NCBI GenBank assembly: GCA_001897855.1
Contig: MKUO01000004.1
Span: 186,001 to 250,000, forward strand
Direction: 5' to 3'
DNA length: 64,000 nucleotides
Source of the DNA: Bacteroidetes bacterium 43-93
GTDB taxonomy: Bacteria > Bacteroidota > Bacteroidia > Chitinophagales > Chitinophagaceae
Part shown: positions 37,990 to 41,635 of the stretch, piece by piece
How the letters are laid out: each line of letters opens with the position of its first letter
Position numbering within the stretch: position 1 is the first letter of the stretch
Notes under the pieces: model-generated
What the model was told of the DNA's origin: nothing
What the model saw: the letters and a program-made list of their open reading frames with translations, nothing else
Databases searched by the model: none
Position numbers and translations under genes: made by a program

Positions 37990-38057
37990 TTAGTTGGCGA
38001 AAGCATGCCGCCTTCGTTTAGCGTGTTAGGCGATAATGTTGCTGTACCTATTATCGC
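37990..38057 (+). repeat. Dispersed intergenic repeat (R2, copy 2) with hairpin
   Basis: It pairs with 36251-36295, and ends GCGTGTTAGG. The hairpin GCGATAAT (38030-38037) / ATTATCGC (38050-38057) follows directly. GTTAGGC at 38025-38031 resembles the integron core site GTTRRRY, but no full attC fold is seen. Confidence 0.5.
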
Positions 38058-38069
38058 AAACTGAATGAC

Positions 38070-38094
38070 AAAACCCGTTCTCAAAGCGGGTTTT
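38070..38094 (+). terminator. Terminator-like hairpin after the HxlR gene
   Basis: Arms AAAACCCG and CGGGTTTT, then TATTTGC. It occupies the same place relative to the next repeat as the hairpins at 38897, 39646 and 41297. Confidence 0.7.
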
Positions 38095-38100
38095 ATTTGC

Positions 38101-38165
38101 TTGTGAACTCTATTGGACTTACATCGAACCGGATTATTGAGGATTTTGGCTGCATAAAAGTTTGT
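38101..38165 (+). repeat. tRNA-3'-end-like island repeat (copy 1)
   Basis: TTGTGAACTCTATTGGACTT then ACATCGAACCGG, then TTGAGGATTTTGGCTG. It lines up with 38929-39000 and 39675-39745. The core TTGGA...TCGAACC is a diverged form of TTGGATTCGAACC at 41228 and 41337, which is a tRNA T-arm read backwards. Confidence 0.6.
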
Positions 38166-38226
38166 TTAAGGAAATATTTCCCAAATTGCATTCTATAATT
38201 TGGTAGACTAACCACTTGTCGAGATA

Positions 38227-38787
38227 ATGAATAAACTTTCGTTTAAAATATTACCTAGTGAAGAAACTAACGACCATGAGGCTAGAATTCTAATTGATGG
38301 GCAAGATTATTTAGGTAAAGATTATTTAGGAGTAGACCCGGTATCTTTTTTTGCTCAAACCCTTGAGAAGAATGGAGAAATCCTTGTAGGACGTTGCACT
38401 TGTGGTGTAGAAGGCTGTTGTGATCTCTCTTTAACAGTCAGTGATATAAATAATACAATATTGTGGACGAATAATGACGGACTTAACCTATCATTTGACA
38501 AAAGTGAATACGTGGCCTCCATTCATCAGGCTAGAAATGATCATAGTTGGGAAGATCTCAAAAGAAAAGTCGAACGTTTAGTAACTAATATACTTAGAGA
38601 TTCACAAACAAAAGACAATTACAAATTTGATTGGGCATCAGCACGAATAAAAGATAATCAAATCACTTTAAGTTATATTAAAAATGATGACCAGAAATTA
38701 TTTTACATTTCTTGGGATGGTATTACAGAGGACAATGTTGTTATAAAAGCTCAAAAATTCCATGAAGAAAGACTTAGTTCGGGATAG
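38227..38787 (+). CDS. Unknown protein with a CxCGxxGCC motif
   Basis: 186 residues. The notable motif GRCTCGVEGCCDLSL puts Cys57, Cys59, Cys64 and Cys65 close together and could bind a metal. The flanks look like a small alpha/beta protein (ILIDGQDYLGKDYLGVDPVS, ISWDGITEDNVVIKAQKFHE). I do not recognise the family; the cysteine cluster recalls small uncharacterised proteins and immunity-type proteins. The gene is AT-rich and bounded on both sides by island repeats, so it looks like a single-gene insertion. Confidence 0.65.
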   Translation: MNKLSFKILPSEETNDHEARILIDGQDYLGKDYLGVDPVSFFAQTLEKNGEILVGRCTCGVEGCCDLSLTVSDINNTILWTNNDGLNLSFDKSEYVASIHQARNDHSWEDLKRKVERLVTNILRDSQTKDNYKFDWASARIKDNQITLSYIKNDDQKLFYISWDGITEDNVVIKAQKFHEERLSSG

Positions 38788-38828
38788 TGTCACTGGTAGT
38801 CGCCTGACAAGCAACTTGCAGAAATCTT

Positions 38829-38990
38829 TTCGAACTCGAACCACTTAATAATTGAAAACGAACACTTTATAAAAGCTCGAAAATACTACCAAAAACAAAA
38901 GCCACTGATAATCAGTGGCTTTTGTTGTTTTGTGAAGTCTGTTGGAGTTAGGTCGAACCAAGTTTTTGATGAATTGAAACTATTAGCTGT
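38829..38990 (+). repeat. Island attachment-like module (copy 2)
   Basis: Three parts: TCGAACTCGAACCACTTAAT with TGAAAACGAACACTTTATAA; the hairpin GCCACTGATAATCAGTGGC with A and T flanks (38897-38923); and TGTGAAGTCTGTTGGAGTTA then GGTCGAACCA. The same three-part order occurs at 41228-41352, with the same spacing type. Confidence 0.65.
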
Positions 38991-39018
38991 TTGAGTTATT
39001 GTGTTTTTATACCAGTTT

Positions 39019-39477
39019 TTAAAGAAATTTCCCTTTTAAAGCTTCAACAATTATTTTGTGATCTTCTTCATCAGGCAGACCGGAAACCGTAATTGTCGCT
39101 ACCATTCCTACGTTCTTTATAAGTATAGGTATTGAACCTCCTCTAGCAATAAAATCTTTATCATCGAGACCAAAAGTCTTTTCTAAGGTCATATTACCTT
39201 CTTTTAAGTCATTTTTTACACTTAGAGAACTTTCTTCAAATTGCTTCGCAACATTCGCTTTCCGTCTAAGCCAATTATGTTTGTCTGCAGGAAGGTTGTC
39301 ATCAACGTAAAGGAACACCGTATGGTTGAGCCTGCATATTTCAACAGCTATATGTTGATTTCGCTTTTTTGCTAAGTCGATAATCCTTGAAGCCATTTCG
39401 AATGCTGTCCTGTTAGAAAAACTATCTAATTCTATCATCTTTATTATTGATCCGGTTTCAATATTCTTCTTAGCCAT
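39019..39477 (-). CDS. UPF0303/GlcG-type heme-binding domain protein
   Basis: 152 residues. The block ASRIIDLAKKRNQHIAVEIC and LPADKHNWLRRKANVAKQFE, then FIARGGSIPILIKNVGMVAT and TVSGLPDEEDHKIIVEALKG match the UPF0303 (YBR137W-like) family, related to GlcG/HbpS and sometimes named heme-degrading domain. The biochemical role is unsettled: some relatives bind heme, others act as chaperone partners. The start is ATG 39477. AT-rich, alone between island repeats. Confidence 0.8.
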   Translation of the reverse strand: MAKKNIETGSIIKMIELDSFSNRTAFEMASRIIDLAKKRNQHIAVEICRLNHTVFLYVDDNLPADKHNWLRRKANVAKQFEESSLSVKNDLKEGNMTLEKTFGLDDKDFIARGGSIPILIKNVGMVATITVSGLPDEEDHKIIVEALKGKFL

Positions 39478-39645
39478 TGATGATTCGTTTGAAATTTAAT
39501 GAGTATTAAAAATAGATATTTCATTGTTTTTATTTAGAGTGGATTTAGTGCATTGTAGAAAATACGTGCTCATCTTCAGCTAATAAAACCAATACTCATT
39601 AATGAAAGTAGACTTTGGTCCGATATCCAATCGGGATATAACGAT

Positions 39646-39745
39646 GAAAGCCGCTACTGTAGCGGCTTTCTTTTTCTGTGAACCGGATTGGACCTTTTTC
39701 GAACCAGGTTGTTGAGGATCTGAAGATTTTGGCTGTTTAAAGAAT
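39646..39745 (+). repeat. Hairpin plus tRNA-3'-end-like island repeat (copy 3)
   Basis: Hairpin GAAAGCCGCTACTGTAGCGG with CTTTC (39646-39670), then CTGTGAACCGGATTGGACCT and TTTTCGAACCAGGTTGTTGA, and a shared tail GAAGATTTTGGCTGTTTAAAG-like to 39742. It aligns with copies 1 and 2. Confidence 0.6.
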
Positions 39746-39783
39746 AAACGGTCTCATGTGTTGGATCAGCGGGAACGTTAAAC

Positions 39784-39893
39784 GTATTGCTGTCAGTGCG
39801 GGTGTTTATTGCACTTCAGCTCCACCAATGTACAACAGCTTGGTAGAACTAAGAAGTTCAGCACCTGTTCTTTAGCCCGCATTGCAGCAATAC
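39784..39893 (-). repeat. 110-bp imperfect inverted-repeat element after the HEPN gene
   Basis: Left arm GTATTGCTGTCAGTGCGGGT (39784-39803) and right arm GCCCGCATTGCAGCAATAC (39875-39893) are complementary except for one insertion and two mismatches. The 70-bp loop holds CTTCAGCTCC and GTTCAGCACC direct repeats and a GAACT/AGTTC hairpin. GTTAAAC (39777-39783), a GTTRRRY-type heptamer, abuts the left arm. It lies 20 bp 3' of the HEPN gene, as an attC lies 3' of a cassette gene. The rest of 39478-39912 holds no other clear feature. Confidence 0.5.
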
Positions 39894-39912
39894 ACTTTTG
39901 GCAGCAGGTGGC

Positions 39913-40953
39913 TTACCTTTTTAAATTTCGCCCATACAAGTCAGTGAATAATTCAATATTCAAGTGATAATTGTTAATCAGTAATTCCTTGTTTATTAGT
40001 TTATCGTCTCTGATATCAATTAATGCCAATAGTAAGTAGTAGGCTAAAAGAAAACTGAAACCACAATGCGCATATGTCCTAAGAGTGGCTTTGCTGCTTC
40101 GAAACGGCGAGAATACTCCTCCGTGTGCCCTGTCATTACGAAGCGTATACAGTATGCCATTAATGCAAAAATTCAATTGCTGTGCAAGATTGGCAGATAT
40201 CGTTTTACTTAACGCTCCATCACTAACAGTAAGTTCATCTCCTTTAATATATCTAAACAAAAATCTACTTCCTTTCCTTCTTGATATCATACCGTCGTAG
40301 GGATAGTTCTGTCTAATCAACTCGATTACCTGTTTTGCTTCTAAGTTTCTCGCTGCACCACCATCAAACGCTATTAGTCGTGATATTTCCTTGTTGGGGT
40401 TATTGGGTTTTGACGCGTCATAATTTGCGTATAATCTCTTAAACAAATATTCACAAGATTGGACAGGCACGCATTGAATTAACTTAAGAAAACAAGCATT
40501 CAAGATTGGATTAGTTTTAAAATAATTTGTCCATAGTGTATCCACAGAAGCTCTCAAGATATCCTTATCATTATTGCAACTAATGCCTTGTTCAGAAACA
40601 GTTTGACTTGTCAAGAAATCAATCGCTCTCCAAATAAAGTCGAAAGCCAAGTCAGGTCTATACGGCAAGAAATCAAGAGCGTCCAGCATGTAAGCAATTG
40701 AACGTTGGAAAAATTTTTCGTTTGAATAGTTTAAAGAAACTGGCCTGAAAGCTTCTGGTATACTTAGCGATTGTAGTTTTTCTGAAAAAATTTTCTCTAT
40801 TTCAAACTGAGCTTTGGACGGCCAAGAATGCACTATTTCAATCCGTCGACGTTTAGACTGTTCGGTGTCATTAACAAGTGAATTTACTTCTTCGTCTGCT
40901 TTATCTAAGCCTGTGTCGGCTTCATTATTTTCCTTTAAATGATTTTCTTCCAT
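39913..40953 (-). CDS. HEPN-motif protein of unknown function, possible defence nuclease
   Basis: 346 residues from ATG 40953. A charged N-terminus (residues 1-35) is followed by a long helical region. Near the C-terminus, YTLRNDRAHGGVFSPFRSSK has Arg272 and His277 in an Rx4H arrangement, the HEPN RNase signature, inside a helical segment followed by hydrophobic TLRTYAHCGFSFLLAYYLLL. HEPN proteins are often metal-independent RNases of toxin-antitoxin or defence systems; no antitoxin partner lies next to it. The frame reaches 41004, but a -7-like TATATTTG on the minus strand just upstream makes ATG 40953 more likely. AT-rich. The family is not recognised. Confidence 0.65.
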   Translation of the reverse strand: MEENHLKENNEADTGLDKADEEVNSLVNDTEQSKRRRIEIVHSWPSKAQFEIEKIFSEKLQSLSIPEAFRPVSLNYSNEKFFQRSIAYMLDALDFLPYRPDLAFDFIWRAIDFLTSQTVSEQGISCNNDKDILRASVDTLWTNYFKTNPILNACFLKLIQCVPVQSCEYLFKRLYANYDASKPNNPNKEISRLIAFDGGAARNLEAKQVIELIRQNYPYDGMISRRKGSRFLFRYIKGDELTVSDGALSKTISANLAQQLNFCINGILYTLRNDRAHGGVFSPFRSSKATLRTYAHCGFSFLLAYYLLLALIDIRDDKLINKELLINNYHLNIELFTDLYGRNLKR

Positions 40954-41126
40954 AAAATTGGTATGAGTAATTGTTTTTTGAGAGCCGGGTTCACTTGCCG
41001 CCAACTCTCAAATATACGCAACGAATGTTAACAGTCTGTAATATGGCTGTTTTACCTTACAAACCATTCCAGTCAAGGATCAAAGCTGCCCACAATATTT
41101 GAACCGTCAGCAACACAAAATACGCA

Positions 41127-41285
41127 ATGAGTTTTCCTGAATGGATCGGACAGATTACCCAGCCGGGCGAGCACCACGAAAACGGTTATCTGGTTTCGTT
41201 TTCTTATGATGCTGAAAAAACTAACTTAATTGGATTCGAACCACCTAACACTGAAAATGAGCAGTTTGCAAAGTCAATAAATTAA
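41127..41285 (+). CDS. Possible 52-residue ORF overlapping the attachment repeat
   Basis: Starts MSFPEWIGQITQPGEHHENG and ends with GFEPPNTENEQFAKSIN. The last third is encoded by the repeat unit (41228-41270) that also occurs, broken by a TGA, at 38829. It may be the tail of a lost gene carried with the island rather than a live gene. Confidence 0.25.
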   Translation: MSFPEWIGQITQPGEHHENGYLVSFSYDAEKTNLIGFEPPNTENEQFAKSIN

Positions 41286-41352
41286 TAGCAAAACAAAAGC
41301 CACTGAATTTCAGTGGCTTAAATATAAAGTGAGCCAAATTGGATTCGAACCA
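41228..41352 (+). repeat. Island attachment-like module (copy 4) with exact 16-bp direct repeats
   Basis: AATTGGATTCGAACCA is found exactly at 41228-41243 and at 41337-41352. Between them lie ACTGAAAATGAGCAGTTTGC and the hairpin AAGCCACTGAATTTCAGTGG with CTT (41297-41319). The order is the same as in copy 2 at 38829-38990. It looks like the 3' end of a tRNA, its terminator, and a second tRNA end. Confidence 0.7.
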
Positions 41353-41378
41353 ATGATCTTCAGTTGGCCAACGGTGGT
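41330..41378 (-). tRNA. tRNA 3'-end fragment (T-arm and acceptor strand only)
   Basis: On the minus strand ATTGG-TTCGAAT-CCAAT forms a perfect T-arm (41338-41354), followed by a TTGGCTC acceptor strand and an A discriminator. No matching 5' acceptor (GAGCCAA) or D-arm is seen upstream on that strand, and the anticodon region cannot be folded. It is therefore a partial tRNA, as left at an attachment site. The remaining stretch 41379-41635 has a GCAGCTTGCTAAGCTGC hairpin and AT-rich sequence and no gene. Confidence 0.55.
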
Positions 41379-41635
41379 AACAAGTATTCTTATCATACCC
41401 TCGCAGCTTGCTAAGCTGCAACAGCGATAGCTGTTCTTATGGGTTAAGTTTCTTTTTTAAAACCTTTCTTAATATCTTATTGAATACCTTTATTAAGTAT
41501 CTTATTTAAGCTGTCGTAGTGTTGCACTATGTGTTGCAGTGTTTGTAGCAACACATTTTCATAGGAGGTTTAAACAGAGTGTGCTATCGCTTATTTAAGC
41601 TGCTGTTTATTTGCTGCCTTAAAATAGTAAGCATT

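Follow-up and report, generated by a model that had tools for sequence, protein, structure and literature searches.

A probable accretion array of recombinase-less cassettes at a decayed tRNA gene of a Chitinophagaceae genome

The stretch of DNA analyzed here, called the window, comprises 64,000 nucleotides (G000:C4:186001-250000) of the 4.0-Mb draft genome of Bacteroidetes bacterium 43-93, family Chitinophagaceae; this source genome and its relatives are designated by G numbers, and individual loci by L numbers. Between 38.0 and 41.4 kb, the window holds an island in which four junction modules alternate with three small cassettes. The best explanation, with a probability of roughly 0.78, is that the island arose by accretion. 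In this view, three small integrative cassettes, none of which has its own recombinase, form a stacked array at a tRNA gene that has since decayed and was probably tRNA-Arg(TCT), and the modules are attachment junctions of a large serine recombinase (LSR).

The island and its junction modules

The four modules (W1 to W4), located by sequence and by a repeat search, have the same orientation, as the original prediction had claimed. On the plus strand, which is antisense to the tRNA, their parts are a terminator-type hairpin, a tRNA 3' end (GTGAnCC..TTGGAC), five bases, TCGAACC and a coding-like tail, in this order. W1 (38070-38130; core 38113-38130), the outermost junction of the array, has its hairpin at 38070-38094, a tRNA-3'-end-like half at 38103-38118, the insert TTACA at 38119-38123 and TCGAACC at 38124-38130. 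In W2 (38898-38959; core 38942-38959) the same parts lie at 38898-38922, 38932-38947, 38948-38952 (TTAGG) and 38953-38959, followed by the tail SNQVFDELKLLAV and a stop, to 38994; in W3 (39647-39705; core 39688-39705) they lie at 39647-39669, 39678-39693, 39694-39698 (CTTTT) and 39699-39705, with the tail SNQVVEDLKILAV and a stop, to 39740. W4 (41296-41378; core 41339-41351) has its hairpin at 41296-41319 and a tRNA 3' end without the five-base insert at 41329-41351.

As for the earlier claim that the core is a T-arm read backwards, it stands for W4, where plus-strand 41329-41351 is the antisense of a tRNA acceptor and T-arm, and it needs refinement for W1-W3, which have five T-loop bases more than a tRNA; these are absent in W4. 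Judging from its sequence, W4 probably carries a decayed tRNA body to about 41378, which would be the anchor of the array. The left half of W3 matches tRNA-Arg(TCT) at 14 of 17 positions, and in two G014 copies of the tRNA-Arg relic 0 and 55 of 2000 shuffles were equally good; a decayed tRNA-Arg(TCT) is the most likely identity of the window anchor. ARAGORN called no tRNA in the window, Rfam gave no match there at the gathering score, and an intact tRNA ending in TTGGCTCA, which the prediction had proposed to look for, was not found. A tRNA island is bounded by an intact tRNA on one side and, in the same orientation, by its displaced 3' fragment on the opposite side; of such a tRNA, the window has no more than a probable relic.

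All three cassettes are read on the plus strand, and they span 38119-38947 (cassette 1, from the left junction to the next tRNA-end half), 38948-39693 (cassette 2) and 39694-41344 (cassette 3); their G+C contents are 0.34, 0.34 and 0.38 versus 0.434 for the window, in agreement with the AT-rich genes first noted between the modules. Cargo gene 1 (38227-38787, plus strand) encodes 186 residues without a Pfam, PADLOC or NCBIfam match, cargo gene 2 (39019-39477, minus strand) an HbpS-like protein with a haem-degrading domain (PF03928), and cargo gene 3 (39913-41004, minus strand) 363 residues from a TTG start, without a family match. The prediction had also reported no integrase in the window, and indeed no PF00589 or PF07508 match of this genome lies there.

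The locus has a counterpart in G014, with the same neighbors in the same order, other cargo between them and a similar module at the right border. When 400 bases from the left end of cassette 3 were compared, 79-95 of them matched left ends of G014 and of the metagenome-assembled genome (MAG) UBA1947 with 85-87% identity, after which the match ends; the G014 cargo is a different one. Regarding an empty site, none of 7 genus relatives had a left-flank gene of the window near DUF445 within 12 kb.

Further repeats accompany the modules. The sequence AATTGGATTCGAACCA was confirmed by the repeat search to occur twice exactly, at 41228 and 41337, 109 bp apart; its first copy and the stretch after it form a B motif at 41228-41290 (plus strand). 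Another B motif, a direct TCGAACCACTTAATAATTGAAAA.. on the left of the terminator, occupies 38829-38890 of the plus strand. A C motif, in which the core recurs in inverted form (minus strand, TTGGATATCGGACC), lies left of the terminator at 39615-39640, within a minus-strand model match at 39571-39674. By eye, the B motif resembles a decayed LSR 3' end and may derive from one, yet a 17-row nucleotide profile of LSR 3' ends had no significant match in the window (best E-value 1.5).

Modules, docking sites and recombinases in relatives

Searches with covariance models, in line with the search proposed at the outset, revealed like modules in other genomes of the genus and the family. Against circularity, model R2 was built from 16 modules of other loci, without window sequence, and it matched W3 (1.7e-23), W2 (7.3e-19), W1 (1.1e-16) and W4 (9.1e-6); at E<=10 it gave 8 matches in the 64 kb, all within 38.0-41.4 kb, four of them on the minus strand (the best two at 39571-39674, 1.1e-6, and 38831-38927, 0.0016). 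An earlier model of 17 rows, R1, which included W1-W3 and whose E-values were computed per genome, had matches in 13 of the 15 genus genomes at E<=0.01, a number that falls to 10 at <=1e-6; in the family sample, it matched 42 of 117 genomes at <=0.001 and 24 of 117 at <=1e-6, and some of its weak matches are merely tRNA ends with terminators. The exact 18-base pattern of core with insert was present at 16 places in 10 of the 15 genus genomes, three of them W1-W3, with 2 for the reversed-pattern control. Of 56 modules arranged by script, 54 had a recognizable core, and the five inserted bases are mostly A or T. In other MAGs (L215, L219, L224), modules were observed whose left half is a different one, TAGCCCC..CCTCC-like, and in which GTTCGA occurs ~60 bases past TCGAACC.

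The tail of the modules, ~40 bases long, reads S-N-[QRH]-[IFL]-[ILV]-[ED]-D-L-[KR]-x-L-A-[VI]-stop (in short, SNxIIEDLKxLAV-stop), and 25 of the 54 modules share the codon position of its stop. Pairwise differences at codon positions 1, 2 and 3 were 0.455, 0.287 and 0.602 in these 25, and 0.489, 0.378 and 0.624 in all 54; variation is thus greatest at third positions, the pattern of a coding sequence. In GTDB contigs the tail pattern was found in 15 stretches, two of which (L214, L222) look like chance, and in viral contigs it had no match.

Correctly oriented arrays end at an intact tRNA-Lys at L108, L112, L116, L119 and L123, at tRNA-Arg at L034, L097 and L103, and at tRNA-Leu at L128; most other fetched arrays have no intact tRNA. 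Synteny breaks at such borders: the 7,583 bases aligned between G010 and G011 show 96.1% identity, and the two diverge 43 bases past the 3' end of tRNA-Lys, with no further similarity in the next 2.3 kb of G010, and other tRNA-Lys and tRNA-Arg pairs of relatives break in a similar way. Among nine relatives compared behind tRNA-Lys(TTT), G002 and G004 have an LSR in common, G006 and G009 have similar initial terminators, and the others differ; the similarity of G007 to G006 and G012 resumes several kilobases outward, as expected of inserts placed between the tRNA and its old flank.

The protein behind tRNA-Lys in G002 and G004 has 525-528 residues and reads toward the tRNA, and in G004 it carries the Resolvase (PF00239) and Recombinase (PF07508) domains. 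PF07508 was searched in 13 genomes, a set outside which G001, G003 and G091 fall; it gave 33 matches in 12 genomes, and 30 loci were fetched. At 19 of the 30, an antisense tRNA (Lys, Asn, Arg, Ser, Leu, Val or Asp) lies at the 3' end of the LSR gene, and in 18 of the 19 the LSR frame enters it, with a stop inside the tRNA in 11 and read-through in 7; the single miss is a gene broken by Ns. A further LSR, at L246, ends in what appears by eye to be a tmRNA, where ARAGORN called none. In the source genome, one LSR is at tRNA-Ser(TGA) and two are not at tRNAs. When the LSR was compared with NCBIfam, CcrB and CcrC were among the best families, far under their cut-offs.

For each of the 19 LSR elements, the stretch beyond the LSR was searched for the same tRNA 3' end, five bases and TCGAAC, with mismatches counted over the core as well. 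A far junction was found in 5 of the 19, always behind a hairpin, and the elements so bounded are ~18 to 42 kb long: G013 tRNA-Asn (0 mismatches, ~18 kb away), G005 tRNA-Arg (2), G004 tRNA-Lys (3), G002 tRNA-Lys (4) and G007 tRNA-Arg (5). At <=3 mismatches, the only limit at which controls were run, this amounts to 3/19 versus 0/19 on the wrong strand and 2/316 with a wrong tRNA; in these three (G013 tRNA-Asn, G005 tRNA-Arg, G004 tRNA-Lys) both borders of a tRNA island are seen. The far-end tail is in frame with the exit of the LSR from the tRNA end in all four testable pairs. In G013, the far-end terminator resembles those directly behind tRNA-Asn in G001 (90% over 50) and G003 (87% over 47); hence, integration seems to have moved the old tRNA end and its terminator ~18 kb away. 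The flank match of G001 begins at the terminator, yet ~2.4 kb from tRNA-Asn, which leaves the empty-site proof for G013 partial.

The window junctions are the same in kind as those of the LSR elements: a tRNA end, 5 nt, TCGAACC and an in-frame tail. The original prediction, in which elements insert again and again at the 3' end of a tRNA and each leaves behind an attachment repeat with a terminator, is supported by comparative data from tRNA-Lys, tRNA-Arg and tRNA-Asn of relatives. As to the enzyme, it had proposed to look for a tyrosine recombinase, while the LSR-tRNA overlaps, the far junctions and the frame of the tail implicate a large serine recombinase.

In the LSR genes (e.g., L227, L232, L238, L240, L228) the words TTGGTTCGATAT and TATCGAACC recur, resembling the C and B motifs, and these words may be DNA sites. 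The last 170 bases of the LSR 3' ends contain TCGAAC in 15/17 and GGTTCGA in 7/17, and CGA makes up only 13.6% of the Arg codons there. At L245 (G008:C9:216.9 kb), an LSR that is not beside a called tRNA has a frame that runs into TCGAACC and an ISNQLKDF-like tail; here, perhaps, a later arrival is stacked behind an LSR element.

Proposed mechanism and competing explanations

In the proposed mechanism, the LSR would recombine its attP with the T-loop of a tRNA. One side of the element would consist of a terminator and a tRNA 3' end, and the other of five bases, TCGAACC and the last codons of the recombinase gene. Upon integration, the tRNA would receive the 3' end and the terminator of the element, and its old 3' end and terminator would be displaced to the far side, before the tail; with a new 3' end and terminator supplied by the element, the tRNA would stay whole. 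In full elements, the LSR gene would span the attachment site, so that integration would replace its native C-terminus with one that the antisense tRNA encodes. The next element would enter at the restored tRNA, whereby elements would stack with the oldest outermost, and those that have lost the LSR but keep both ends could be served by an LSR from elsewhere. Several parts of this scheme go beyond what is observed: the position of the crossover and the swap of the C-terminus relative to a free circle, the presence of an intact LSR gene with its native C-terminus in that circle, and the movement of the window cassettes in trans by such an LSR are all inferred. The simplest reading of the tail, as far as its sequence tells, is that it would be this native C-terminus, displaced or cut off by integration.

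As for elements without a recombinase, 33 were delimited by modules in the recombinase-searched genomes (one of them in G091, where PF07508 was not searched), and neither a PF00589 nor a PF07508 domain match overlaps any of the 33. Their lengths range from 0.1 to 11.8 kb, 18 are <2 kb with both ends kept, and many of the cassettes listed have one main open frame. G011 has stacked cassettes at tRNA-Lys, yet no PF07508 match in its genome; helper recombinases may therefore come and go.

A number of results weigh against the accretion array. The left halves of W1 and W2 match tRNA-Arg at only 11/17 and 9/17 positions, tied with other tRNAs, and the tRNA-Arg relic of W4 is weak on its own, since 126 of 2000 shuffles were equally good. 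The LSR 3'-end profile has no significant match in the window, so that only the junctions speak for an origin of the window cassettes from LSR elements. No far junction was found in 14 of the 19 LSR elements: four contigs end within 5-11 kb, and G004 tRNA-Ser, G000 tRNA-Ser, G008 tRNA-Lys and others were scanned for ~40-60 kb. The tRNA-Arg locus of the source genome shares with G002 and G010 only the tRNA and a few neighboring bases. Neither a free circle nor an unsplit LSR-attP was seen; viral contigs contain five LSR relatives, none with the native tail end and at least two ending in antisense-tRNA-like codons, and the plasmid relatives were all <60% identical. Finally, tyrosine integrases adjoin modules in two places: a 415-aa integrase is next to a decayed module of the source genome (L016 4700-6114), and in G005 two tandem integrases lie between tRNA-Ser and a module (L115 14791-17624).

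The latter bears on the explanation that ascribes the modules to Bacteroidota-type tyrosine integrases, which have Arm-DNA-bind_5 and SAM_5 domains and would act here as they do in ordinary tRNA islands. It finds further support in the intact tRNA-Arg(TCT) of the source genome, which is followed by a 437-aa tyrosine integrase (L020 4881-8937, G000:C4:346.9 kb). However, L016 and L115 are the direct neighbors seen, without a systematic count, PF00589 is matched in none of the 33 elements, and the tail, by eye like an integrase C-terminus, could not be traced to such an enzyme: when a profile of 49 tail peptides was run against 2372 open reading frames, no frame with an integrase motif was in the best 25. 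A DNA pattern for an unsplit tyrosine integrase joined to TCGAAC, made with one codon too many, occurred in 0 of 394 genomes; once the spacing was right and one mismatch allowed, it occurred in 43 of 195, not above the reversed-pattern control, and the translated loci had no integrase context. This explanation is accordingly considered unlikely. A separate observation at L020 is that the integrase is followed by an HNH-like protein and an ATPase, Septu-like by eye.

More weight, albeit still on the doubtful side, is given to the idea that each cassette is the stump of a full LSR element, which integrated with its own recombinase and then lost most of its genes by deletion, without ever being a single-gene mobile unit. 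A nucleotide profile of 17 LSR 3' ends matched 3 of 38 module upstream regions at <1e-4, and such ends persist just upstream of L113_19242, L107_5153 and L097_5884; element L113_E carries an LSR 3' remnant before its right module. The existence of full elements at tRNAs and the range of lengths among the delimited ones also speak for it. On the other hand, the 18 short elements that kept both ends, many of those listed with one main open frame, speak against it, as do the left ends that agree in three genomes, the window included, and then differ. An integron-like scheme, in which the modules are folded attC-type sites and an integron integrase encoded elsewhere exchanges the cassettes, would account for cassettes that often have one gene and for the C-type modules, imperfect inverted repeats that bulge asymmetrically around the hairpin; it is nevertheless very improbable. 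The attC boxes of integrons have the consensus GTTRRRY/RYYYAAC, whereas the boxes here are GGTTCGA/TCGAACC and by inspection misfit in orientation and sequence; moreover, the arrays end at tRNAs, and the far junctions of LSR elements share the anatomy of the modules. Least credible, to the point of being nearly discarded, are terminator-linked dispersed repeats that resemble a T-arm by chance: AAAGCC..GGCTTT-type hairpins do recur in the genus, but conservation extends jointly over the tRNA half, 5-nt insert and coding-like tail, the halves seen at far ends match the tRNA on the opposite side of their element, and the tail is in the LSR frame.

Beyond the window, the accretion array reading can be extended to the whole family: the T-loops of tRNAs would dock, in general, the one-gene cassettes of an LSR-driven, integron-like economy, these cassettes, without a recombinase and each bringing a terminator and tRNA end, would be gained and stacked in trans, and the C-terminal swap may be a switch between integration and excision. 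This extension is put forward only tentatively.

Relation to known systems and neighboring repeats

In the staphylococcal cassette chromosome (SCC)/Ccr system and the Enterococcus cassette chromosome, LSRs drive serial insertion at the 3' end of a gene, and composite elements without a recombinase are known; the target of SCC is a protein gene, while here it is the T-loop of a tRNA. Integron arrays consist mostly of single-gene cassettes that lack their own recombinase and are separated by recombination sites. The arrays described here are alike in that layout; however, no integron-type boxes were seen, and the docking site is a tRNA.

The nearest system in mechanism are the ssrA islands of Dehalococcoides: the serine recombinase DsiB inserts them midway in the T-loop of the tmRNA, direct repeats of the 3' end separate islands in tandem, and 15 ssrA islands have no integration module (PMC3146451). 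Serine recombinase, T-loop insertion and tandem islands with integrase-less members are thus shared features. The differences are that Dehalococcoides has one target, ssrA, and a 6-gene module, whereas here several tRNAs appear to be used (Lys, Asn, Arg, Ser, Leu, Val, Asp) and the cassettes often have one gene; the present system also differs in that every module has a terminator and the frame of the LSR gene enters the tRNA. Islander (2014) states that only tyrosine recombinases were known to target tRNA and tmRNA genes (PMC4383910); by then, a serine recombinase at the tmRNA gene of Dehalococcoides was already on record, in a description from 2011 (PMC3146451).

The islands of Islander and TIGER resemble those reported here in that the tRNA is made whole again by the island and a displaced 3' fragment stays behind (PMC4383910, PMC12424338). 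TIGER requires an integrase and excludes islands <2 kb (PMC12424338), and with these demands short recombinase-less cassettes would be missed. The tycheposons and the tRNA-anchored additive islands of Methylophilaceae are similar as cargo islands at a tRNA; the tycheposons there carry a tyrosine recombinase (xerD), unlike the cassettes here (PMC10872708). Literature searches among open-licence papers, by listings and the beginnings of abstracts, brought up no report of the present LSR family. This family seems to target T-loops in several tRNAs, its recombinase frame overlapping the target tRNA, and enzymes that read this near-universal motif are of interest as integration tools.

Regarding the cargo of related cassettes, 20 proteins were compared with PADLOC, 2 from the window and 18 from other loci, chosen partly for their defence-like look. 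At <1e-10, 12 of the 20 had a match, and these comprised CBASS cyclases, E1-E2, phospholipases, PtuA, PDC-M62, TIR, GmrSD-like proteins and a type I specificity subunit; both window proteins tested had none. With CBASS, Septu-like, TIR and GmrSD-like genes in the cassettes of relatives, such arrays may be a hidden route for defence genes. Cargo elsewhere is also ordinary, with a fasciclin, a metallophosphoesterase, a fatty acid hydroxylase and a beta-lactamase-fold hydrolase.

Finally, two repeats flank the island in the window. On its left, 38031-38060 holds GATAATGTTGCTGTACCTATTATCGCAAA, which is palindromic (GCGATAAT..ATTATCGC) and recurs exactly at the left side of the G014 island; it is a separate dispersed repeat. 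On its right, between the anchor module and DUF445, ~190 bases at 41415-41608 recur at 80% identity in the same genome, on the minus strand at C4:273035-273227.

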